Source: Clostridiales bacterium
Lineage (GTDB): Bacteria; Bacillota; Clostridia; Christensenellales; Aristaeellaceae
DNA length: 64,000 nt
Direction of reading: 5' to 3'
NCBI GenBank assembly: GCA_012523405.1
Contig: JAAYIN010000095.1
Location: forward strand, 1 to 64,000
The position numbers were made by a program, and so were the translations under genes. Each line of letters opens with the position of its first letter. Within the stretch, counting starts at the first letter, position 1. Below, piece after piece: positions 52,806 to 63,889 of this stretch. Under the pieces are notes generated by a model, which had not been told where the DNA came from, searched no databases, and worked only from the letters and a program-made list of their open reading frames with translations.

Positions 52806-52812
52806 TATTGAA

Positions 52813-52857
52813 GCATGCTTGCTTTCATTTTTACACATGAAGGCAAGCATGTTTTTT
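52813..52857 (+). terminator. Terminator after the radical SAM gene
   Basis: CATGCTTGC (52814-52822) pairs with GCAAGCATG (52843-52851), with inner TTCA/TGAA pairs and a run of six T after the stem. Confidence 0.92.
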
Positions 52858-53045
52858 GATTATTTTATAGTGAAACAGCTTTATCAAGTTTCAGAAACAA
52901 TATACATAGTTGCCATATTACGACCATCTTTTCGTGGCGTTATTTTCATATATAGTTCACTGTGCATAGTTTTTGTGTAAGCATTTTGTATATAACGACT
53001 TTTTCATTTTCACTGCTTGACTCTACAGTGAAACAATGCTACGCT
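52858..53045 (+). promoter_or_regulatory. Regulatory region with repeated TGAAAC elements upstream of the sugar ABC genes
   Basis: This gene-free stretch before the binding-protein gene holds AGTGAAACA twice (52869-52877 and 53028-53036) and a related GATGAAACAATG near 53049. TGAAAC (52871-52876) and GTTTCA (52888-52893) form an inverted repeat with an 11-base spacer. TTTCACTG (53008-53015) and CAGTGAAA (53026-53033) form another with a 10-base spacer. A candidate promoter, TTGACT (53017-53022) with TACGCT (53040-53045) 17 bases on, is straddled by the second repeat. TGAAA/TTTCA half-sites are common in RpiR-family operators, so the RpiR protein encoded at 57585 is the likely ligand; this is inference. 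Confidence 0.6.
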
Positions 53046-53144
53046 TCAGATGAAACAATGGTTCGCAGAAAAAGCAGATTCACGTAACATTCATCCGCTT
53101 TGCGACCAAACGAGCGTTATTTAAAAATTGAAGGAGGTTCCATC

Positions 53145-54686
53145 GTGAAAAAACTACTCTCAATGCTGCTGGCTCTAAGCATGCTACTAACCTTTGCTTC
53201 CATTCCTGCTATGGCACAAGCAAGTGAACCGATCAAGATTTCCTTGTACTACTCCGATAACGCAACACTCCCCTTCCAGGAGGACTGGCTCACTGTTCAA
53301 ACTATTGAAGAAATGTACAATATCGACTTTGAGTTCGAGGTCATCCCGATTGCTGACTACGCAACCAAAGTATCAACCGCACTAAACGTCGGCGGCAATA
53401 CACTACCCGATGTTATCCTGTATCAAAGCACCAAGGGCGAAAATGCTTCATTGGCGCTCAATGGCGTATTGGCACCACTTAGTGACTACAGTGACTGGAC
53501 CCCTAATTTCAACGCACGCGTTGAAGAGTTTGGCCTTCAGGACAGCATTGATGCACTAAAGCTTAGCGATGGCAAGCTTTATTATCTGCCTTCCTTGACA
53601 GACATTCCTTTCTATGATGGCGGCCTTATTCTTCGTCAGGACTATCTAGAGACCAAGGGCTTGGATGCTCCGAAGACCTTTGATGACCTTTATGAAATCC
53701 TAAAGGCTTACAAAGCAGATTATCCGGACTCCTATCCTCTGACCATTCTAGCTGGCCCCCGCGTTCTTTATCGTATGACAATGCCTTCCTATGGCATTAG
53801 TCTTGGTAAGAACGGTGCATCCGGCACAAACACATTGAGCTGGAATTACGAGACCAAAGAGTACTTCGAAGGCGCAACCAGCGATGAGTACAGAGCATAC
53901 ATCTCCTTCTTCGCAAAGCTATATGCTGAAGGTCTGCTTGATCCTGAAATGGCTGATCCCATTGATGGCGATCGCTGGACCCAGAAGATGGCGAACGGCT
54001 CTGCAATGGCAACCTATGCATACTACGATCAAATCGGCGGCGCAGAAGCAGCTTCTGAGATCGAAGGAATCAACCTGAACATGTATCCCTGCCTAGAAGG
54101 AACAGCAGGCGCACATCACCAACCCAAGAGCTCCACAGGCTCTGGTATCCTCATCCCCACCAAAACAGCTGAGCGCGATGATTTCGAGCAAGTTGTTCGT
54201 GCAATCGACAATGCATTCTTCTCTGAAGAAGCAGCTAAAGTTTGGTGCCTTGGTGTTGACGGCGTAACATATACCGAAGAAGCTGGCGTTGTTAGCTACT
54301 CTGATGAACTGGTCAATTCTCCTGACGGCGTCTACAAGACACTACAGGTTAAGTATGGCTGCGGCAGTGATGTAACCCAGATGGTATGGTACAATGCACG
54401 CGAAATGACCAAGTATGATGCAAACTATTCCGAGATCAACGCAGCTGTTGCTGCAATGGATGGCGTCATCCAGGCGATCCCCCCAACCCCCATGTTTGAT
54501 GATTTGACCGCTGAAGATGCTGGCATGCTCCAAACACCCCTAAGCGATTCTTGGGAAGTATGGAATGATGCATTCTTAACTGGCAAAAAGTCCATCGAAA
54601 CCGATTGGGACGAATATGTTGCTGAAATGCAAAGCAAGGGCATTGAAGAATTCTGCGCGATCTACAACGACAATCTCGCAAAATAA
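53145..54686 (+). CDS. Extracellular sugar-binding protein of an ABC importer
   Basis: A 513-residue solute-binding protein of the large LplA-like (oligosaccharide) class. Residues 1-23 are a signal peptide (KKLLSMLLALSMLLTFA, cleavage after PAMA). No Cys follows, so there is no lipobox, unlike most Gram-positive binding proteins. The mature part has the two-lobe pattern with NVGGNTLPDVILYQ, DGKLYYLPSLTDIP and GSGILIPTKTAERDDFEQVV. The start is GTG at 53145 behind AAGGAGG. It is followed by two permeases and murQ, so muropeptide-derived sugars are the predicted cargo. Confidence 0.9.
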   Translation: MKKLLSMLLALSMLLTFASIPAMAQASEPIKISLYYSDNATLPFQEDWLTVQTIEEMYNIDFEFEVIPIADYATKVSTALNVGGNTLPDVILYQSTKGENASLALNGVLAPLSDYSDWTPNFNARVEEFGLQDSIDALKLSDGKLYYLPSLTDIPFYDGGLILRQDYLETKGLDAPKTFDDLYEILKAYKADYPDSYPLTILAGPRVLYRMTMPSYGISLGKNGASGTNTLSWNYETKEYFEGATSDEYRAYISFFAKLYAEGLLDPEMADPIDGDRWTQKMANGSAMATYAYYDQIGGAEAASEIEGINLNMYPCLEGTAGAHHQPKSSTGSGILIPTKTAERDDFEQVVRAIDNAFFSEEAAKVWCLGVDGVTYTEEAGVVSYSDELVNSPDGVYKTLQVKYGCGSDVTQMVWYNAREMTKYDANYSEINAAVAAMDGVIQAIPPTPMFDDLTAEDAGMLQTPLSDSWEVWNDAFLTGKKSIETDWDEYVAEMQSKGIEEFCAIYNDNLAK

Positions 54687-54740
54687 GCAATCCCTCTCTA
54701 TGCGGCACGTATATCTAAAAGTATCAGATGAATGAAGCGG

Positions 54741-54774
54741 GCCGCACCATGGGTTACCGTGGTGCGGCTTTTGT
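54741..54774 (+). terminator. Hairpin between the binding protein and permease genes
   Basis: GCCGCACCA (54741-54749) and TGGTGCGGC (54760-54768) form a perfect 9-base stem followed by TTTTGTT. Partial termination here would give more binding protein than permease, a usual arrangement for importers. Confidence 0.88.
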
Positions 54775-54805
54775 TATTCATCGCCACATCAAAGGAGGTG
54801 TCTGT

Positions 54806-55768
54806 ATGGGACAAAGTCGTAAAAACAACCCATCTGCAGATTCAATTTCAGTTTTTAAAAAAGAATCGTTTTCTTCACATTTTAAGCGATATTGGCAATT
54901 ATATGCCATGCTGACGCTCCCTGTTATCTACTTTATCATCTTTAAGTATGTTCCCATGCTTGGTAACGTACTGGCATTCAGGCGCTATCGTCCCGGTCTT
55001 GGTCCATTTGGAACAGAATGGGTTGGCTTCCGTTACTTTGAGAAATTCATGGGTGATCGAGCATTTTGGCAAGCTTTTCGCAATACGCTCACAATATCTC
55101 TGTTAAATCTGCTGATCAACTTCCCCATTCCAATTATATTTGCAATCATGCTCAACGAGGTCAGGCATCTACGCTTTAAAAAGCTAGTGCAAACCGTGAG
55201 CTATATGCCCCGCTTCGTGTCAACCGTTGTTGTGATTGCCATGATGAGCGAAATTCTATCCCCTTCATCAGGACTGCTTAATATGTTTTTAAAAAACACA
55301 TTCGGCATGACACCCATTTACTTTATGAATGAACCACAATATTTCCGCCTGCTCTATGTATTAACCGACACATGGCAGTTCACGGGCTGGACAGCGATTA
55401 TCTATCTAGCCGCAATCACCTCTATCTCCAATGACTTGTTTGAGGCCGCTAAAATCGATGGTGCATCGCGTTTTCAGCAGATCAGATACGTAACCATCCC
55501 GTCCATCATGCCCACCATTATGGTCATGTTCATTTTGAATGTTGGACGTCTGCTCTCGCTGGGATTTGAAAAGGTGCTGCTCATGTACACCCCTTCCAAT
55601 TCTTCCGTATCCGACATCATTGATACACTGGTATACCGTGTTGGTCTTGCCAATCAAAACTATTCCTACGCAACCGCAATTGGTCTTTTCAGCGGTATCA
55701 TCGGCATTATCCTTGTCACATCAAGCAATTACATTAGCCGCAAAACAACCGGCGATAGCATTTATTAA
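54806..55768 (+). CDS. ABC sugar permease, LplB type
   Basis: A 320-residue permease with six membrane segments. The N-terminal part is WQLYAMLTLPVIYFIIFKYVPM, typical of LplB. The EAA loop that contacts the ATPase is EAAKIDGASRFQQIRYVTIPSIMP. It partners with the permease that follows and the binding protein before it. No ATPase gene is present in the locus, so a shared MsiK-like ATPase is expected elsewhere. The ATG at 54806 lies behind AAAGGAGG. Confidence 0.93.
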   Translation: MGQSRKNNPSADSISVFKKESFSSHFKRYWQLYAMLTLPVIYFIIFKYVPMLGNVLAFRRYRPGLGPFGTEWVGFRYFEKFMGDRAFWQAFRNTLTISLLNLLINFPIPIIFAIMLNEVRHLRFKKLVQTVSYMPRFVSTVVVIAMMSEILSPSSGLLNMFLKNTFGMTPIYFMNEPQYFRLLYVLTDTWQFTGWTAIIYLAAITSISNDLFEAAKIDGASRFQQIRYVTIPSIMPTIMVMFILNVGRLLSLGFEKVLLMYTPSNSSVSDIIDTLVYRVGLANQNYSYATAIGLFSGIIGIILVTSSNYISRKTTGDSIY

Positions 55769-55782
55769 AGGAGGGAAGTAAC

Positions 55783-56676
55783 ATGGTCACAACAACTAAA
55801 GAACGCACAACCATTAAGCGTGGTGCGGGCAGTTTCTTACTAGACATCATCGTATATGCTGTGATGATCGGTTCATTGCTTATCTGTCTATTGCCTTTTT
55901 TGTACATGATTGCTCTCTCATTTTCCGATGCAAAAGCGATCACAAACAATCAGGTAAGTTTCTTTCCCGTCGGCTTTAATCTTGGTGCGTATACGCAAAT
56001 ATTCACGTATCCGAACTTCTTCCGTGCCTATGGGAATACCTTTATCTACACAATATTTGGTACTTTTATCTCGCTCATGATGACAATTCTATTTGCCTAC
56101 CCGCTCTCCAAAACATTCCTCAAAGGTCAGCCATTCTTTATGAAAATGGTCATTATCAGCATGTTTTTCTCTGGCGGTTTAATTCCAAACTTCCTGATTA
56201 TCTCAAACCTGCAATTGACCGGTACCATATGGGCAATGCTCCTGCCTTTTGCAATCAATCAGTTTAATCTGATTATCCTTGTTAACTTCTTTAAAACACT
56301 GCCAACTGAAATTGAAGAGGCAGCTCTTATTGACGGACTCAATTACTTTGGTATACTATTTAGAATCGTTCTACCCCTTTCCACTGCGTCTATTGCAACT
56401 GTCGGACTATATACCGCCGTTTTCTTCTGGAATGACTGGTTCAATAGTTTGCTCTACCTCAACTCCAGACAATATCCCGTGATGCTCTATCTTCGCAATA
56501 TTGTCAACGGAACAACCATGCTTGGCGATGCAGCTGGTTTTGGCGATAAATCCACGATTGGTATTTCGCTCAAATCCGCAGTGATTGTTACCTCCACTCT
56601 TCCCATTATCATGATTTATCCCTTCCTGCAAAAGTACTTTGTCAAAGGTATGACTGTCGGTGCAGTCAAAGGATAA
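55783..56676 (+). CDS. ABC sugar permease, LplC/YtcP type
   Basis: A 297-residue permease with six membrane segments. The second half has [20 protein letters not shown], the EAA loop [22 protein letters not shown] and [13 protein letters not shown], the pattern of LplC/YtcP. It forms the heterodimeric channel with the LplB-like partner 14 bases upstream. murQ starts 17 bases downstream, indicating a shared transcript. Confidence 0.93.
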
Positions 56677-56693
56677 TACAAAGGAGCTATGAT

Positions 56694-57584
56694 ATGGTAC
56701 AGTTAAATTCAATTGATACAGAGATGCAAAATCCGAATACCGCCAAAATTGATTGTCAGAATACCCTAGGTATGCTCAAACTCATCAATAGCGAGGATCA
56801 ACAAGTTGCTTTTGCTGTAGAAAAAGAATTGCCTCATATCGCACAAGCAGTCGATGCTATCTATGAAAAACTTCACAATGGCGGCAGGTTGATCTATTGC
56901 GGTGCAGGAACATCAGGCAGGCTTGGTGTACTGGACGCCTCAGAATGTCCGCCTACCTTTGGCGTGCCTGATCATCTTGTACATGGCATCATTGCGGGTG
57001 GAATAGATGCACTCACCAATGCAATGGAGGGTGCGGAGGATGACTTTGACGGCGGCATGAGAGATCTTAAAGCCATTGATTTTTCTAGCAATGATGCGGT
57101 TGTCGGCATTGCTGCCAGCGGAAGAACGCCTTATGTTCTTGGTGCAATGGCCCATGCCCATTCACTTGGCGCTCCAACCATAGGCATTACTTCATGCGAA
57201 AACAGCGGGCTATCAAAGTATGTTGATGTCTGCATTGCACTTCAAACAGGTCCCGAGGTCATCACAGGCTCAACCCGCATGAAGAGCGGCACAGCACAGA
57301 AAATGGTGCTTAATATGCTCTCCACAACTGCGATGATTAAGCTTGGCAAAGTATATGGGAATCTCATGGTTGACGTGAAAGCAACCAACGAAAAGCTTGT
57401 CCAGCGAGCCATCTCCATTGTTATGACCGCAACAGATGCGGATGAGGCAACTGCAAAAAAAGCGCTTGAGCAATGCGATTATTCATGCAAGCAAGCCATC
57501 GTGATGTTGCTGCTCGGCACAGACGAAGATGGAGCAAAAAAAGCCCTTGAAAAGGCTGACGGCCATATCTCAAGGGCTTTATAA
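56694..57584 (+). CDS. murQ: N-acetylmuramic acid 6-phosphate etherase
   Basis: MurQ removes the D-lactyl ether from MurNAc-6P, giving GlcNAc-6P and D-lactate. The 296-residue SIS-domain protein has [24 protein letters not shown] with the catalytic Glu, [40 protein letters not shown], and a C-terminal small helical domain. It is co-transcribed with an ABC importer, not with the murP PTS gene found in Bacillus. The last 45 bases contain a terminator stem. It is convergent with the RpiR gene, with the stop codons abutting. Confidence 0.96.
57540..57583 (+). terminator. Terminator overlapping the 3' end of murQ
   Basis: AAAGCCCTTGA (57540-57550) and TCAAGGGCTTT (57570-57580) are a perfect 11-base inverted repeat. 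It encodes the last murQ codons and also lies at the convergent end of the RpiR gene, so it can serve both. A long T-tract is not present. Confidence 0.75.
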
Positions 57585-58457
57585 TCATTCACCTGTCACG
57601 CGGTGAGGTATGCAGCTATTAAAGCTATTTTCAAGCCGTACTTTTGCTCTATGATAATCCAGATGCGCTACCGCAGTATAAAGCACATCGATGAGTATCA
57701 ACTGCGAAATACGGCTGCTCATCGCTCCGCTTCGCCTATAGACCTCTGGGCAGGAGGTATATAGCGCATAATCAACCAGCGAAACAATCGGCAGCCGACC
57801 ATATTGGGTTACACTGATTAACGTTGCGCCTGTTTTGCGTGCGATCTCGATTAACTCGATGATCTCCTTCGTCCTGCCCGAATGGGAGAAATAGATACCA
57901 ACATCGCGTTGCGTCATATTAGCAGCATAGGTCAGCTGAATATGAAAGTCTCGGCAATTGACCACATTCATCCCAATCCGCAACAGCTTGTTATACAGGT
58001 CTTCCGCAACGAGTGCAGATGCACCAACACCGAATAATTTCACCGAATCCGCCCTGATGATCTTTCCAGCAACTTCCTTAATTTGTTCAGGATTAATCAA
58101 TCTCATGGTATCTTCAATCGCTTGAATACTACCATTTCTGACCGTGTCGATCATTTGCTCGACGTTTGAATGTCCTGATATATCAGCATATAGCGCCTCT
58201 TGTGCAATTGGTTTTGGGTCTTTTTGCGCATTGAGTTCGGTAAATAGCTGTTTTTTTAAATCCTTTAGTCCATAGAATCCAAGCGTTTTGCTAAAGCGTA
58301 CCCATGAGACTTGACTCACACCAGCAGCTTTTGCCAGTGATGCAATCGGCATGTGAAATACATCATCAATATGTGCCAGAAAATAGGTGGCCACTTTCTT
58401 TTCCGAAGGGCATAACGTTTCCAATATGTCACGTGTGCGGATTTCAATTCCCGTCAT
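57585..58457 (-). CDS. MurR/RpiR-family transcriptional regulator
   Basis: A 290-residue regulator with an N-terminal helix-turn-helix (MPIASLAKAAGVSQVSWVRFSKTLGFYGLKDLK in pieces) and a C-terminal SIS domain (KLFGVGASALVAEDLYNKLL, GIYFSHSGRTKEIIELIEIA). In Escherichia coli MurR senses MurNAc-6P and represses murQP; the same effector is likely here because it sits within the muropeptide locus. The ATG overlaps the anmK TGA as ATGA. Candidate sites are the TGAAAC elements upstream of the binding-protein gene and in the anmK-namZ gap. Confidence 0.93.
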   Translation of the reverse strand: MTGIEIRTRDILETLCPSEKKVATYFLAHIDDVFHMPIASLAKAAGVSQVSWVRFSKTLGFYGLKDLKKQLFTELNAQKDPKPIAQEALYADISGHSNVEQMIDTVRNGSIQAIEDTMRLINPEQIKEVAGKIIRADSVKLFGVGASALVAEDLYNKLLRIGMNVVNCRDFHIQLTYAANMTQRDVGIYFSHSGRTKEIIELIEIARKTGATLISVTQYGRLPIVSLVDYALYTSCPEVYRRSGAMSSRISQLILIDVLYTAVAHLDYHRAKVRLENSFNSCIPHRVTGE

Positions 58458-59635
58458 ATGCTCACCTTCCCCATAATCACCGGATGTTTTGCACCGGTTG
58501 CGTTTGGAACATTGTTACATAAACCGTGTAAACATTCATTGGCAAGAATCGCAAATGCGATCGCTTCTTTGGCATCACTGTCCATTCCCAAATCCTCATT
58601 TGTCAGTACAGGGATGGTTAGCAAATCTCTAAATGAATTCAGCAATGTCATGTTTTTGCTTCCGCCGCCTCCTATGATGAGTTTATCAGGCTTTGGACTG
58701 CACAACTGATCAATTCCTATTCTGACTCATTCAGCCGTGAAGCGAGTCGCCGTTGCCAGCATGTCAATTAGGCTGATGCTACGCTCCTCTCCAAAGGCTA
58801 CAAGCCGAGTAACATAATCAGCACCATAATCCTCACGTCCAGTTGTTTTAGGCGGTTTACGGCTTAAATAAGGGTCTTGCAGCATGAAGGATAATAATTC
58901 CTCGTTGACGAATCCCTTTGCAGCCATATATCCCCCATCATCAAAATACTTTTCTCCATTTGTGATGATTTGGACAAGCGCATCCATGACCATGTTTCCA
59001 GGTCCTGTGTCAAACGCATACGTATCCTCAAGTGAACCCGCGCGCGGCAGCACAGTTATATTGCCTATTCCTCCGATGTTTTGCAGTCCAACCGTTTCAT
59101 CGTTGCTTCTGTACAACAAGAACTCCGTATAGGGGACCAGCGGTGCGCCGCATCCGCCGGCTGCCATGTCACGAACCCTGAAGTCACTAACGACCACGCA
59201 ATCCATTCCCTCGCATATGACCGAAGGTTCTCCCAGCTGTAATGTAGCGCTGATCATATGCCCTAGGTAAGGCGTAGCAACTGGAATATAGTACAATGTT
59301 TGCCCATGACTTCCTACAAAATCCACTTCCGATGTACTTACGCCGGATTGTCTGCAGACTTCCTTGCATGCTTCAAGAGATAATTGTCCAAGCAAGAAGT
59401 GAAACAAGCTAAGCTCTTTTGAACCACCTGATACACCTGTGGCAAGACGCAATATTGTCTCCCTGATTTCATTGGCATACGGAATAGAGACAAATCCCTT
59501 TTGCGTAACCTTTGTCTCCGTCCCCGATCCGCTTATTTCAACAAGCGCTGCATCCATACCATCCGCCGATGTACCGCTCATCAGACCAATTCCCAGCAAT
59601 GTTTCTTTTTTTGTCAAAGTGTAGAGTGATTTCAT
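58454..59635 (-). pseudogene. anmK: Anhydro-N-acetylmuramic acid kinase interrupted by an in-frame UGA
   Basis: AnmK opens the anhydro ring of 1,6-anhydroMurNAc while phosphorylating it to MurNAc-6P. The frame of 394 codons (including the stop) is broken once, by TGA at 58729-58727 (codon 303), and continues in frame. Before the stop are LGIGLMSGTSADGMDAALVEI (ATP loop), VGSHGQTLYY and NIGGIGNITVLP, DTGPGNMVMDALV and TATRFTAE. After it come PDKLIIGGGGSKN and the C-terminal helix. All family motifs are intact, so the lesion is recent or tolerated. The ATG at 59635 lies behind AAAGGAG. The final TGA overlaps the RpiR ATG. Confidence 0.85.
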
Positions 59636-59678
59636 GGAAATCTGTCTCCTTTGCTTATGAAAGTTTGTTTCTAATTCG

Positions 59679-59707
59679 ATTGTACTCGTTGTAATTTTAT
59701 TTGTCAA
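59679..59707 (-). promoter_or_regulatory. Promoter of anmK-rpiR, with a small GAAA/TTTC repeat
   Basis: Minus-strand TTGACA (59707-59702) and TACAAT (59684-59679) are 17 bases apart, a strong promoter. Just beyond, GAAA (59659-59662) and TTTC (59668-59671) form a short inverted repeat with a 5-base spacer, a possible RpiR half-site pair in the leader. A matching rightward promoter for namZ is not obvious. Confidence 0.7.
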
Positions 59708-59720
59708 GGAGGTGCTATTC

Positions 59721-60872
59721 ATGATTCGTCTTGGTATTGAAAGAGTTTCAGAATACCGCGAAGTTTTCTCTGGAAAAAAATTAGGAATGATCACCGCTCC
59801 ATCGGGCACAGATCAAAAACTGCATTCATCTGCCGAATTATTCATGCAGCAATATCCATTATCCGCTTTTTATGGTCCAGAGCATGGAATCCGCGGCGAA
59901 GCCGATGCAGGCGACCCTGTTGATGGTGTCATGATTGACGTAAGAACAGGACTCCCCATGTACAGCCTTTACCGCACCGATAGCAAGGATTTTACCGCCG
60001 ATATGCTTGAGGGCATTGACGCTTTGGTTTATGATATACAGGATCTTGGACTTCGCTTTTATACCTATATATCCACAATGGTCAAAGCACTTGAAGCGTG
60101 CACTGCTTACGGCAAAGAGTTGATCATCCTTGATAGACCTAATCCGCTTGGCGGGCAATGCATTGATGGCGGTCGTCTGCATAACGATTACGAAAGTTTC
60201 GTAGGCTGCTACGATATCCCCATTCGATATGGGCTTACCATCGGTGAACTGGCGATGATGGTGCATTCGGAGCAAAAGATGAATTGTAAGCTCACCGTAA
60301 TTCCCATGACGGGATGGACACGCGATCTCTTGTTTCCAGACCTAGGTTATCCCTTTTTGATGCCTAGTCCATCTATTCCAAACTTTCATAACGCCATGCT
60401 TTATGCTGGCACCTGCTTGCTTGAGGGGACAAACATCTCCGAGGGACGCGGCACATCAGACCCCTTCGCTATCCTTGGCGCACCATTCATTGATGCGTTC
60501 GATCTTTGTGACGCCCTACATTCGCTCAGAATTCCGGGTGTACTCATTACCCCTACCTTCTTCACGCCCAGTGCAAGCAAGCATGCAGGAAGCCCATGTC
60601 AGGGCGTTCACCTGCATCTAACCAGTCCATCCGCTTACCCTGCTGTATCTACAGGCGTACAGATCATCGACACCCTTCGGACACTATATCCCAAGGACTT
60701 TTCATATGCATCTTCACTGGAAGTCAATCATAAGCATATGCTTGATTTGCTCAGCGGCAGCGATGCACTCAGAACAAACCTCAGTACAGAGCCGCTCCTT
60801 GAGGAATGGAAAAAAGATAGTTTGGATTTTGAAGAACGTTCATCTTCGTATCATTTATATGGATGGAGGTAA
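59721..60872 (+). CDS. namZ: Exo-beta-N-acetylmuramidase NamZ (DUF1343, GH171)
   Basis: NamZ removes terminal MurNAc from the non-reducing ends of peptidoglycan fragments. The 383-residue protein has the DUF1343 pattern: LGMITAPSGTD, AFYGPEHGIRGEADAGDPV, LVYDIQDLGLRFYTYISTM, ILDRPNPLGG and EGTNISEGRGTSDPF. The ATG at 59721 follows AAGGAGGTG, and the protein begins directly with the catalytic domain, with no signal peptide, in contrast to the secreted Bacillus enzyme YbbC. It is the first gene of the namZ-nagZ-kinase-GNAT unit. Confidence 0.93.
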   Translation: MIRLGIERVSEYREVFSGKKLGMITAPSGTDQKLHSSAELFMQQYPLSAFYGPEHGIRGEADAGDPVDGVMIDVRTGLPMYSLYRTDSKDFTADMLEGIDALVYDIQDLGLRFYTYISTMVKALEACTAYGKELIILDRPNPLGGQCIDGGRLHNDYESFVGCYDIPIRYGLTIGELAMMVHSEQKMNCKLTVIPMTGWTRDLLFPDLGYPFLMPSPSIPNFHNAMLYAGTCLLEGTNISEGRGTSDPFAILGAPFIDAFDLCDALHSLRIPGVLITPTFFTPSASKHAGSPCQGVHLHLTSPSAYPAVSTGVQIIDTLRTLYPKDFSYASSLEVNHKHMLDLLSGSDALRTNLSTEPLLEEWKKDSLDFEERSSSYHLYGWR

Positions 60873-60877
60873 ACCCC

Positions 60878-62437
60878 TTGCTTAACATGTCATTGAAGCA
60901 AAAGATCGGTCAAAGAATTGTTGTTGGCTTTCCCGGATATGAGATTCCGGCAGAACTGGAAAGCCTTGTGAAGGAGCATTATGTCGCTAACTTCATATTG
61001 TTTTCAGAGAACATACGTGATAAATCGCAAGCAAAGCAGCTTTGTGCAGACCTACAAGCACTAACGCTTCGCCATACGGGTACATCTGCATTCATTACCA
61101 TTGACCAAGAAGGCGGCATTGTTTCGCGCCTTGGAAGCGATGCAGCTGTTGTGCCAAGCGCCATGTGTATTTCAGCTTCAGGAAATCCGAAAAACGCCTA
61201 CACAGCTGGATATATCACCGGAAGTGAGCTTGCTGCCATTGGCGTTAACTTTGACCTTGCGCCCAATATGGACGTAAACTCCAATGCTGCCAATCCTGTA
61301 ATTGGCGTACGCAGCTATGGAGACACGCCTCAAACCGTCAGCATCTATGGCACAGAGATGATCCGTGGTCTCATGGACGGCGGCGTGCTATGCTGCGCAA
61401 AGCACTTTCCTGGGCATGGAGATACGGCAATTGACTCTCATTTAAGCCTTCCGCTCGTTGATAAAACCGTTACCGAACTGGAAGCATGTGAACTCGCTCC
61501 CTTCAGGGCTGCTATTGCTGCAGAGGTTCCCGCCATCATGACAACCCACATCCTCTTTCCTCATCTCGAACCCAAAGAAATACCTGCAACCATGTCCAGA
61601 CGTATCATCACGGATTTACTCAAGGAGCAAATGGGGTTTGAAGGACTGGTATTGTCAGATTGTATGATGATGCAAGCCATTCAAAAGTTCTATGGTACTG
61701 TAAACGGTATGGTGCAAGCAATTCATGCAGGGGTTGATTTGGTCTTCACCTCGCATAGTATGGCTTTTGCCAAGGATGCCTGCATTGCGATTGAAGAAAA
61801 CTTGCATTCAGGCATGCTCAGCATGGAGGAGATGGATGCATCTGTCCAAAAAATACTGATGTACAAAGCTCAAGTTAAACCATCGACCGCTTCCATAGAC
61901 CTTGTTGGTTGCCAGGAGCACCGCAATCAAGTCAAACAATTGATGAACGACGGTATGTCCGTTGTCCATCTCCCTGAAACTGGACTTCCTGCAATCGGTT
62001 CTAATCCCCTATTTTTAGGATGTCATCCATTCCGCCCCACCATTGCTTCCAATCCAGAGGATTTTAGCATCAGCTTTCCAACGCTGATGCAAGCTCAGCT
62101 CAGCGGAGATGCGATAGCAACGCCAGTTGATCCAACTGATAGCGAGATAGATGATATTACGCTAGAAACCAAAGACCACACTTCCATAGTCATTGGAACG
62201 TATAACGGTCATATCAAAAAAGGACAGCTACAGCTGGTGCATGCACTTGCTACGCTTGATATACCTGTTATCTGTATAGCGCTGCGCAATCCATATGATT
62301 TACTCGATCTGCCTCAAAATGTTGTAACAATCGCTGCCTATCAATATGACAAGCTGAGCATTGATGCAATCGTTGATCTATTGAAAGGCAAATTGACAGC
62401 TGCAGGAAAATTACCCCTGCAAAAGCTCGGAGGTTGA
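60878..62437 (+). CDS. nagZ: Beta-N-acetylglucosaminidase NagZ (GH3)
   Basis: NagZ releases GlcNAc from GlcNAc-MurNAc or muropeptides. The 519-residue GH3 enzyme has FITIDQEGGIVSRLG, the loop motif KHFPGHGDT (residues 175-183, His-Asp dyad used as acid/base) and the nucleophile Asp261 in LSDCMMM. The C-terminal 170 residues form a second domain as in the longer Firmicutes NagZ. The TTG at 60878 is 7 bases after GGAGGT; there is no signal peptide, so the enzyme is predicted to be cytoplasmic. It follows namZ by 5 bases. Confidence 0.93.
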   Translation: MLNMSLKQKIGQRIVVGFPGYEIPAELESLVKEHYVANFILFSENIRDKSQAKQLCADLQALTLRHTGTSAFITIDQEGGIVSRLGSDAAVVPSAMCISASGNPKNAYTAGYITGSELAAIGVNFDLAPNMDVNSNAANPVIGVRSYGDTPQTVSIYGTEMIRGLMDGGVLCCAKHFPGHGDTAIDSHLSLPLVDKTVTELEACELAPFRAAIAAEVPAIMTTHILFPHLEPKEIPATMSRRIITDLLKEQMGFEGLVLSDCMMMQAIQKFYGTVNGMVQAIHAGVDLVFTSHSMAFAKDACIAIEENLHSGMLSMEEMDASVQKILMYKAQVKPSTASIDLVGCQEHRNQVKQLMNDGMSVVHLPETGLPAIGSNPLFLGCHPFRPTIASNPEDFSISFPTLMQAQLSGDAIATPVDPTDSEIDDITLETKDHTSIVIGTYNGHIKKGQLQLVHALATLDIPVICIALRNPYDLLDLPQNVVTIAAYQYDKLSIDAIVDLLKGKLTAAGKLPLQKLGG

Positions 62438-62441
62438 CGTT

Positions 62442-63356
62442 ATGCTCTTTGTTGGATGGGATGGCGGTGGGACGAGCACAAAAGTACTCTGCATGTCCAA
62501 GGACGGGTCGATCGTTGCACAAAATCAATTTGGCACGCTAAACCTCAATGGGTCAAGCGAGGATAGCATATCAGCTACAATCAGTAGTTGCTTGACTTGG
62601 ATGAGGGCGCAAGGTGAATGCGCGAGCTTATGCGTTGGTGCAGCAGGTATCAGCAACCAGCACGCAAAATCAACTCTGCAATCCTTGATTAGAAGTCAGG
62701 GCTATGACGGTCGTTTGCAGATTGTCGGCGATAGTGATATTGCACTTACAGGGGCTGTTGGCGACAGCGGCTTTGTCCTTATTGCAGGCACTGGCTCGAT
62801 ATGCATTGGTCAAGCGACGGACGGCCAGAAGGCACGCTGCGGTGGGTTCGGGCATATCCTTGACGACAAGGGGAGCGGCTATGCAATTGGACGTGATATT
62901 CTTGTTGCTGTCATTCGTGCCCAAGATGGCAGAGATCAAGCTACAGAGCTAACCGCTTTGGTAGAAAACAAGCTTGGATTCAATGATCCTGCATCCATTG
63001 TCACCTATGTACATGACGCGAACCGAGCAAAGTCAGATATTGCTGGACTCGCGCCGCTGCTATCAATTGCATATCATCATGGTGATCATGCCGCTGAAAC
63101 GATTGTCCGCAAAGCCTCTAAGCAACTATATATGCTAGTCAACGGTGCCGCGAGTCAAATCAATGTCGATAATCCCAAGCTAGCATTTCTCGGAAGCATT
63201 CTGACTCATTGTGAACCAATCACCATAGAAACCACCAGACTAATTGAATCAAAGCTCCCCCATGTACAAATCATTAAACCTCTGCATAGTGCGTCTTTTG
63301 GCGCAGCTACTCTTGCTTACAAGTATGATCAATTGGAGGGTATGAACAATGGCTGA
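62442..63356 (+). CDS. GlcNAc/MurNAc kinase, BadF/BadG ATPase family
   Basis: A 304-residue ASKHA-fold kinase with the phosphate-1 loop VGWDGGGTSTKVLC, the phosphate-2 segment VLIAGTGSICIG, CGGFGHILDDKGSGYAIGRD and an adenosine-type LAFLGSILTH. It resembles the clostridial MurK type, which phosphorylates both MurNAc and GlcNAc at O6 after import without phosphorylation. That fits an ABC importer locus lacking a PTS. The ATG lies behind GGAGGT, 4 bases after nagZ. GlcNAc-only specificity remains possible. Confidence 0.9.
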   Translation: MLFVGWDGGGTSTKVLCMSKDGSIVAQNQFGTLNLNGSSEDSISATISSCLTWMRAQGECASLCVGAAGISNQHAKSTLQSLIRSQGYDGRLQIVGDSDIALTGAVGDSGFVLIAGTGSICIGQATDGQKARCGGFGHILDDKGSGYAIGRDILVAVIRAQDGRDQATELTALVENKLGFNDPASIVTYVHDANRAKSDIAGLAPLLSIAYHHGDHAAETIVRKASKQLYMLVNGAASQINVDNPKLAFLGSILTHCEPITIETTRLIESKLPHVQIIKPLHSASFGAATLAYKYDQLEGMNNG

Positions 63357-63834
63357 TATGCTCGTACGTCTTTTAGACTTGCCCGAAGCTGATTCTCTGC
63401 TACAAAAACTTGAAATGGAAAACATTCAGATACGCCGTGCCATTGCCCCTGACAAGTTTCGCGTGGTCAACTGGGTCAAAGAACATTCCAGTATAAGCGG
63501 CGCAGGCGAATGTGATGTTTGCTTCTCCCACACACCCGTCAGCTGCTTTATCGCAACTGAAGGCGCAAAAATCATTGGCTTTGCATGCTATAATGCTACA
63601 GCGCCAGACTTTTTCGGACCGACACGCGTGCTGGAGGACTACAGAGGTCGCGACATCGGCAAAGCGCTTTTGCTGCGGTCACTTCATGCTTTGCGTGACG
63701 AAGGCTATATCTATGCCATCATCGGCGGAATTGGTCCACAAATATTCTATGAAAAATGTGTAGGCGCGACGCTCATTGAGCATTCAACACCGGGAATCTA
63801 CAAGGACTTTATCGGTGCACTGGAAAAGAAATAA
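63349..63834 (+). CDS. GNAT-family N-acetyltransferase at the end of the muropeptide unit
   Basis: A 161-residue GNAT protein. FIATEGAKIIGFACYNATAPDFFGPTRV forms the central strands, EDYRGRDIGKALLLRSLHAL holds the acetyl-CoA loop, and FYEKCVGATLI is the closing motif. The start overlaps the kinase stop by 8 bases, behind GGAGGG, so it belongs to the same unit. A tempting idea is re-acetylation of de-N-acetylated amino sugars from modified peptidoglycan, but this is inference from position only. Confidence 0.88.
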   Translation: MADMLVRLLDLPEADSLLQKLEMENIQIRRAIAPDKFRVVNWVKEHSSISGAGECDVCFSHTPVSCFIATEGAKIIGFACYNATAPDFFGPTRVLEDYRGRDIGKALLLRSLHALRDEGYIYAIIGGIGPQIFYEKCVGATLIEHSTPGIYKDFIGALEKK

Positions 63835-63852: not shown

Positions 63853-63889
63853 AAAAAGCTCAAGTGCTTATCGCTACTTGAGCTTTTTT
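63853..63889 (+). terminator. Terminator of the namZ unit
   Basis: AAAAAGCTCAAGT pairs with ACTTGAGCTTTTT around a 10-base loop, flanked by A and T runs on both sides, so it also serves the gene converging from the right. Confidence 0.93.

Follow-up and report, generated by a model that had tools for sequence, protein, structure and literature searches.

A CUT1-type ABC importer encoded with NamZ and NagZ that lack signal peptides: a probable locus for salvage of peptidoglycan sugars in Clostridiales and other bacteria

Gene content of the locus

A set of ten genes with a probable function in the salvage of peptidoglycan sugars was analysed in a Clostridiales bacterium of the family Aristaeellaceae (assembly GCA_012523405.1). 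It lies between positions 53145 and 63834 of a stretch of 64,000 nucleotides (contig JAAYIN010000095.1, positions 1 to 64,000; hereafter the window) and comprises genes for a solute-binding protein (SBP), two permeases and MurQ on the forward strand; rpiR and anmK on the reverse strand; and namZ, nagZ and genes for a MurK-like kinase and a GNAT acetyltransferase, again on the forward strand. Families were assigned from Pfam and NCBIfam profile matches and the nearest solved relatives were taken from PDB chains; the order, strands and families of all ten genes, as read from the DNA in an earlier note, were confirmed by these profile searches. We consider it likely that the ten genes make up a self-contained salvage module, in which an ATP-binding cassette (ABC) importer of the CUT1 type would be dedicated to saccharides of N-acetylmuramic acid (MurNAc) and N-acetylglucosamine (GlcNAc) that are then cut, phosphorylated and de-etherified inside the cell.

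The SBP gene (53145–54686, forward; SBP_bac_8, 1.5e-17) starts at GTG 53145, with the Shine-Dalgarno sequence AAGGAGG ahead of it, and encodes a CUT1-type protein with a signal peptide lacking a lipobox. The nearest solved chains are Smon0123 (1e-17), AlgQ2 (3.4e-15) and AlgQ1 (2.3e-14), and no NCBIfam family was matched at E 0.001. Permease 1 (54806–55768, forward) is of LplB/UgpA type (BPD_transp_1, 3.3e-16; UgpA model, 6.8e-17, below the equivalog cut-off). Permease 2 (55783–56676, forward) is of LplC/UgpE type (UgpE model, 3.6e-12, below the equivalog cut-off); it reached 23.5 bits against the Pfam BPD_transp_1 cut-off of 26.4, and its three NCBIfam matches are all CUT1 permeases (UgpE, GlcU and MalG). 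The locus thus holds the SBP and two permeases of a CUT1 sugar importer, a type whose ATPase is often shared.

The MurNAc-6-phosphate (MurNAc-6P) etherase of the salvage pathway is encoded by murQ (56694–57584, forward; NF003915, 1.5e-127), which scored above the curated cut-offs of both NF003915 and TIGR00274 and is the sole copy over cut-off in its genome. The exo-beta-N-acetylmuramidase gene namZ (59721–60872, forward) has both domains of its family well over cut-off (NamZ_N, 4e-72; NamZ_C, 4.1e-44), and its product aligns over the whole length to solved chain 4k05 with the PEHG stretch retained; we take this family to be GH171. The beta-N-acetylglucosaminidase gene nagZ (60863–62437, forward) has a GH3 domain (3.5e-80) and the KHFPGHGDTxxDSH loop, here KHFPGHGDTAIDSH, which aligned to that of the best solved relative, the GH3 beta-N-acetylglucosaminidase 6k5j; against the NCBIfam beta-N-acetylhexosaminidase model NagZ scored 1e-57 (195.8 bits, cut-off 207). 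The next gene (62442–63356, forward; BcrAD_BadFG, 5.7e-31) encodes a kinase of BadF/BcrA fold for which the solved relative ranked best, 8zo3 (2.4e-45), is named a MurNAc/GlcNAc kinase; as judged by homology, this is probably a cytoplasmic MurNAc kinase that would replace a phosphotransferase system (PTS). NagA, above cut-off, was also found in the genome.

The last gene (63349–63834, forward; Acetyltransf_7, 2.6e-7) encodes the GNAT protein. The protein alone had no match among PDB chains at E 0.01, and its profile matched four generic acetyltransferases, none of them close. It is possibly GlmA-like, re-acetylating glucosamine and glucosaminides, where we take GlmA to be the name of the Clostridium acetobutylicum enzyme and its gene to lie near nagZ in that organism. 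The acetyltransferase gene is immediately 3' of nagZ in 15 of the 21 surveyed loci having both, a position that helps the case for a role in re-acetylation, while in the window the kinase gene intervenes. By analogy with a fungal GH3 enzyme whose fused acetyltransferase lets it cut de-acetylated substrate (PMC4680927), the GNAT protein might enable hydrolysis of de-acetylated sugars.

The anhydro-MurNAc kinase gene anmK (58727–59635, reverse; AnmK, 8.5e-64) was correctly placed and oriented in the earlier note; it has an in-frame stop after 302 codons, beyond which a recognisable AnmK C-terminal part resumes in the unchanged frame. In relatives (22 matches, two of them one record) AnmK runs for 374–397 amino acids from match start to stop, apart from one record at 687. 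Recoding of the stop is unlikely since TGA is an ordinary stop at this locus, ending rpiR, nagZ and the kinase gene; anmK may be a real pseudogene or an assembly error in this genome of 130 contigs.

Recurrence of the importer with muropeptide genes

Relatives of the locus were sought in two surveys. The species survey used two short peptide patterns to scan GTDB 220, one genome per species, and gave 65 loci with SBP relatives 48–79% identical to that of the window, in Bacillota and Spirochaetota (Clostridia, Paenibacillaceae, Sphaerochaeta and Treponema among them); these loci were scored with the window proteins at 80 bits or more. At least one of six genes (murQ, nagZ, namZ, anmK, badF and GNAT) was present at 51 of the 65 loci and at least two at 39; where the sequence extended 8 kb or further in each direction (19 loci), the numbers were 15 and 11. 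By gene, MurQ and NagZ were each found at 36 loci, NamZ and GNAT at 24, the BadF kinase at 22 and AnmK at 20, with RpiR at 27, and NagZ and NamZ occurred together at 22. All six genes were present at eleven loci in seven different orders, the window's own order occurring at three (L077, L081 and L118). Among the 29 loci lacking murQ, 15 genomes were searched and murQ was found elsewhere in 13 (three of these also in the murQ search of the order survey).

The order survey covered 396 genomes, with neighbourhoods obtained by tblastn and an SBP threshold of E 1e-40, the three best candidates being scored per genome; five of the 65 loci (L104, L105, L117, L131 and L141) are also records of this survey. 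NamZ was present in 17 of the 396 genomes and the SBP in six, all within those 17; murQ was present in all six, whereas in the family it was found in 77 of 200, counts that are not independent because of kinship. In one of these genomes (G129) the importer lies beside several muropeptide genes, in a second (G293) murQ is about 6.4 kb away, and in a third (G003) the neighbourhood is ended by a contig edge.

An importer dedicated to these sugars predicts recurrence in shuffled gene orders across two phyla, which is what was found, and the proposal of a dedicated importer in the earlier note is supported to that extent. That the same set recurs, reshuffled, in many other bacteria suggests that the gene set represents a real, uncharacterised route of peptidoglycan recycling. 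Chance neighbourhood of the importer and the mur genes was rejected on this recurrence and on the presence of murQ elsewhere in 13 of the 15 genomes.

A search for further recurrent neighbours returned mostly ABC ATPases and the conserved flanks of one Lachnospiraceae group. Two Treponema metagenome-assembled genomes (MAGs; L116 and L129) have extra permease pairs of LplB/LplC type, 29–41% identical to those of the window, beside namZ or rpiR; these might form another importer of those sugars. Genes of the beta-lactamase fold PF00144 lie near the cluster at five of the 65 loci (L107, L109, L117, L118 and L123) and possibly encode AmiE-like amidases, AmiE of Bacillus subtilis being presumably of this kind.

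Cellular location of NamZ and NagZ

The absence of signal peptides from NamZ and NagZ, asserted in the earlier note, held on a hydropathy scan and inspection of start codons, neither of which revealed an alternative start supplying one. In the scan, each reading frame was extended upstream to its farthest usual start codon and an 11-residue hydrophobic core was scored at a Kyte-Doolittle threshold of 2.2. The loci came from both surveys, a few records being doubled (e.g. L036 = L117), and matches below 150 bits (below 400 for the SBP; no floor for GNAT) or starting beyond query residue 25 were omitted. A core above 2.2 was found in 49 of 52 SBPs, which served as the positive control, in none of 38 NamZ proteins and in one of 37 NagZ proteins; NamZ of the window and its relatives therefore differ from the secreted form of Bacillus. 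The sole NagZ above the threshold is a GH3-NamZ fusion scored under NagZ, its NamZ half being outside the NamZ count.

In the window the open frame ahead of namZ is hydrophobic and has no ATG, GTG or TTG before GTG 59712, which excludes a signal peptide from a usual alternative start codon. Given that absence, and the good ribosome site at ATG 59721, NamZ is best read as having no signal peptide.

The fusion protein (L039, 2793–5939; 1048 amino acids) has an N-terminal signal-like sequence and a NagZ-like GH3 domain joined to NamZ, and appears to be a secreted version of the enzyme pair. L039 is a genome of the window's family and not an importer locus; secreted forms of these enzymes thus exist nearby in the family.

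Uptake machinery in the source genome

The source genome (3.56 Mb, 130 contigs, 96.14% complete, 1.4% contaminated) had no match in a PTS_EIIC profile search, so the PTS transporter MurP of the murQ pathway is absent from it at that completeness; the earlier note had named a murP gene elsewhere as a possible objection. Three proteins with PEP-utiliser domains were found. The same note had proposed looking for the window's gene order in genomes without murP: besides the three loci with that order, PTS_EIIC was searched for in 26 genomes selected because they carry the cluster, with no match in 12, a weak one in one and matches over cut-off in 13.

OB_MalK had two matches in the source genome, one over cut-off and one weak and below it. 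The former belongs to a UgpC/MalK-like ATPase, of UgpC/MsmX type, whose gene is on another contig (L142, 769–1920; contig C87); the 3.2 kb read there held no gene for a sugar permease. From its type and solitary position, this ATPase is likely to be the shared motor of the importer; standing alone is expected of such a gene if several importers share one ATPase.

Substrate of the importer

Smon0123 binds unsaturated chondroitin disaccharides and AlgQ1/AlgQ2 bind alginate (PMC5717064). Given that MurNAc is an acidic amino sugar and that these nearest solved SBPs bind acidic saccharides, the SBP family fits peptidoglycan sugars. The pocket differs from that of Smon0123, as only one of the 12 ligand contacts that could be mapped is kept in the window SBP, a thirteenth (His36) being outside the alignment. 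Specificity for glycosaminoglycan disaccharides by homology with Smon0123 was likewise unsupported by the contacts, which are weak evidence given the remote alignment.

The cargo, which the earlier note took to be intact disaccharides or oligosaccharides, may be mono-, di- or oligosaccharides; the pairing of NamZ with NagZ would favour the larger forms. On one alternative the importer takes only free MurNAc (or GlcNAc), secreted hydrolases cut outside the cell, and the cytoplasmic NamZ and NagZ serve fragments arriving by other means. Five loci with the SBP, permeases and murQ and without nagZ or namZ in the stretch read (L080, L082, L087, L091 and L139) fit uptake of monosaccharides, and a relative has the secreted GH3-NamZ fusion (L039). 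We nevertheless regard this alternative as unlikely: nagZ and namZ occur together at a third of the loci, which argues for di- or oligosaccharides, and all importer-locus copies that were scored are without signal sequences; cytosolic exo-glycosidases adjoining an importer make little sense if monosaccharides alone enter; and the solved SBPs nearest to that of the window bind di- or oligosaccharides.

A second alternative is that muropeptides enter whole, with the stem peptide still on the sugars, as they do by AmpG or YejBEF-YepA. The PF00144 genes near five loci would suit this, and Agrobacterium has a muropeptide ABC importer (PMC9790009). Against it, the families of the window cluster in the Pfam and NCBIfam scans include neither an amidase nor an L,D-carboxypeptidase nor a peptide ligase, and the best-scoring models for the permeases are those of CUT1 and not of peptide importers. 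Import of sugars freed of peptide is the reading we prefer, and whole muropeptides are an improbable cargo.

Genes of MupG type (DUF871), for 6-phospho-muramidases, lie near the ABC importer at L079 (8591–9673), where a DeoR regulator gene is also present, and at L084 (6798–7889), with no NamZ in the stretch read. Their position is odd, since MupG of Staphylococcus aureus needs a 6-phosphorylated disaccharide and ABC import proceeds without phosphorylation. GH4 glycosidase genes stand beside the importer at L084 (15351–16661) and L112 (8097–9419), with relatives at L113, L114, L124, L134 and L138. All fall in a single GH4 cluster; six of these seven loci come from the same Lachnospiraceae group, some of the seven are on short contigs, and four were scanned (L084, L112, L114 and L138). 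NamZ was not seen in the stretch read of any of the seven. To judge from gene content, the muramidase step may be replaceable, with a MupG or GH4 enzyme in place of NamZ, as would be expected if the bond between MurNAc and GlcNAc must be cut inside the cell.

Regulator and upstream motif

The regulator gene (57585–58457, reverse) encodes an RpiR/MurR-type protein with a SIS sugar-phosphate domain (HTH_6, 1e-15; SIS, 1.5e-17), which matched the MurR model at 5.7e-41, below the equivalog cut-off. Two direct copies of TGAAACAATG(C/G)T(A/T)CGC, 22 bases apart, lie upstream of the SBP gene (53029..53066, forward; copies at 53029 and 53051) and are the only exact matches in the window. They are the probable operator of this regulator.

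A broader form of the motif, the imperfect palindrome TGAAACAANGTTNC, was derived once upstream sequences had been inspected at 15 loci, 14 of these being relatives in which RpiR is encoded close by. Allowing up to two mismatches, it was present in the 300 bases ahead of the SBP gene at 25 of 64 loci, compared with a mean of 2.9 and a maximum of 9 in 100 dinucleotide shuffles, some of the motif loci being close kin. Of the remaining 49 loci, which had played no part in writing the pattern, 12 had it (100 shuffles: mean 1.83, maximum 7). Random stretches gave 95 matches in 3200, and the shuffles are the better control because random stretches are mostly coding DNA. By analogy with MurR of Escherichia coli, which is relieved by MurNAc-6P (PMC5061867), RpiR may bind the upstream motif and be relieved by the same compound.

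Evidence against a dedicated importer, and a possible unrelated cargo

The following observations count against a dedicated importer of MurNAc and GlcNAc saccharides. None of the six muropeptide genes was found at 14 of the 65 importer loci, some of them on short contigs; at four such loci (L106, L119, L136 and L137) each flank is 8 kb or longer, and L136, a relative at 48% identity, shares its MAG with L135. Searches of the genomes of L136 and L108 did not find murQ. Of the five SBP genomes that the order survey gave besides the source genome, G129 alone has several muropeptide genes next to the importer, and in G374 and G190 the two are apart. Many survey records are MAGs. MurP may be present in 14 of the 26 cluster genomes, those with PTS_EIIC matches to which no sugar has been assigned. 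The broken anmK of the assembly, the Smon0123 contacts and the five loci with murQ and without nagZ or namZ belong here too.

The 14 loci without the six genes lend some weight to a third alternative, that the importer serves an unrelated oligosaccharide and stands beside mur genes by history. Such genomes commonly encode importers of this type, and the source genome has nine other places weakly related to the SBP, the best at 93 bits and 29% identity; none is a close paralogue, and no muropeptide genes were seen in the 16 kb read around that best place (L062). An association kept through seven gene orders and two phyla, murQ elsewhere in most of the searched genomes that lack it beside the importer, and a recurrent common upstream motif make this the least probable of the three alternatives, and a very improbable one.

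Proposed pathway and relation to known systems

In the pathway that we propose, the secreted SBP would bind external saccharides containing MurNAc or GlcNAc, most likely the disaccharides MurNAc-GlcNAc and GlcNAc-MurNAc or short peptide-free glycan pieces, and the two permeases with the shared UgpC/MsmX-type ATPase encoded elsewhere would import them unphosphorylated. Cytosolic NamZ would remove MurNAc and NagZ GlcNAc, both from the non-reducing end, so that an alternating chain is stripped; the GNAT protein would re-N-acetylate de-acetylated sugars, which the hydrolases would then accept. The MurK-like kinase would yield MurNAc-6P and GlcNAc-6P, with AnmK (broken here) doing the same for anhydro-MurNAc; MurQ would convert MurNAc-6P to GlcNAc-6P, to be handed on by NagA; and the RpiR regulator would repress through TGAAAC-type sites until relieved by a sugar phosphate.

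As in the B. subtilis cluster murQ-murR-murP-amiE-nagZ-ybbC (namZ), the window has murQ, an RpiR/MurR-type regulator gene, nagZ and namZ together, with GlcNAc-6P as the predicted endpoint (PMC5061867). In B. subtilis, NagZ and AmiE are extracellular and MurNAc is phosphorylated on entry by the PTS transporter MurP (PMC5061867), cleavage outside the cell setting this species apart from E. coli and C. acetobutylicum (PMC4974736). The window, by contrast, combines an ABC importer, a genome without PTS_EIIC, enzymes without signal peptides and a MurK-like kinase in place of PTS phosphorylation. In S. aureus, as proposed for the window, whole MurNAc-GlcNAc is imported by way of the murP/mupG system and cut in the cytoplasm (PMC6262408); the PTS there yields a 6-phosphate disaccharide that needs MupG, whereas the window locus has NamZ.

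YejBEF-YepA is a peptide-type importer, unlike that of the window, which is of the sugar (CUT1) type with an AlgQ-like SBP. The transporter neighbouring the C. acetobutylicum salvage genes is presumably an oligopeptide-type ABC system, and that cluster is not known to contain NamZ. In its cytoplasmic NagZ and MurNAc/GlcNAc kinase MurK, and possibly in its glucosamine/glucosaminide N-acetyltransferase (an enzyme named by Reith and Mayer 2011 in their title, as PMC4974736 and PMC4680927 cite it), C. acetobutylicum resembles the window locus (PMC4974736, PMC4680927, PMC10465942). YejBEF-YepA of Agrobacterium is alike in that an ABC importer stands in AmpG's place for cell-wall fragments (PMC9790009), and Smon0123 and AlgQ1/AlgQ2, whose SBPs are of a related family, serve acidic di- or oligosaccharides that are imported and cut inside; the available part of that source does not mention muropeptide genes (PMC5717064).

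A 2026 review has MurNAc entering by MurP or MurT and places NamZ outside the cell; in Gram-positive bacteria it gives NagZ as extracellular or cytoplasmic and uptake as primarily by ABC transporters, e.g. DppBCDF-YkfD (PMC13204101). With these and the Agrobacterium importer in print, ABC import of cell-wall fragments is not itself new. The earlier note had suggested a new variant of the pathway; this stands for the combination of a CUT1 importer with murQ and cytosolic NamZ, at a wider distribution than that note saw, and fails in its breadth, as cytoplasmic NagZ, whole-disaccharide uptake and ABC import of muropeptides have been published. In the open literature we found no report that links a CUT1 importer with murQ and a cytosolic NamZ, a search in which NamZ papers were thinly covered and which leaves absence from print unproven.

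The described B. subtilis and S. aureus clusters are PTS-based, and some bacteria have murQ and no murP, Streptomyces coelicolor being one (PMC5061867). For MurNAc uptake without murP the locus offers a candidate importer in Bacillota and Spirochaetota. It also gives a reason why a cytosolic location would suit NamZ and NagZ, would allow a specific name in annotation for a sugar importer that now has none, and is relevant to the use of cell walls as food by bacteria, be the walls their own or those of others. The chances seem about even that it represents a widespread, unnamed third route beside MurP-type PTS and AmpG/Yej-type import, in which whole disaccharides or longer glycans enter by a CUT1 ABC importer and, after re-acetylation by the GNAT protein, are stripped alternately by NamZ and NagZ.

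Additional features of the locus

An SBP without a lipobox is unusual for a single-membrane cell. The lipobox is missing in SBPs of the window's order (window 53145–53230; L036, L058–L060 and others) and in many of those of Spirochaetes; by a crude pattern it was found in 28 of 68 scored SBPs, some records being counted twice.

Pattern scans placed terminator-like hairpins ahead of the gene set (52810–52855) and at its end (63853–63888, forward), such sites not being enriched in the region (6 observed versus a shuffle mean of 10.5). A further hairpin with a T-rich tail lies between the SBP gene and that of permease 1 (54739–54770, forward) and may keep the permease transcript lower than that of the SBP.

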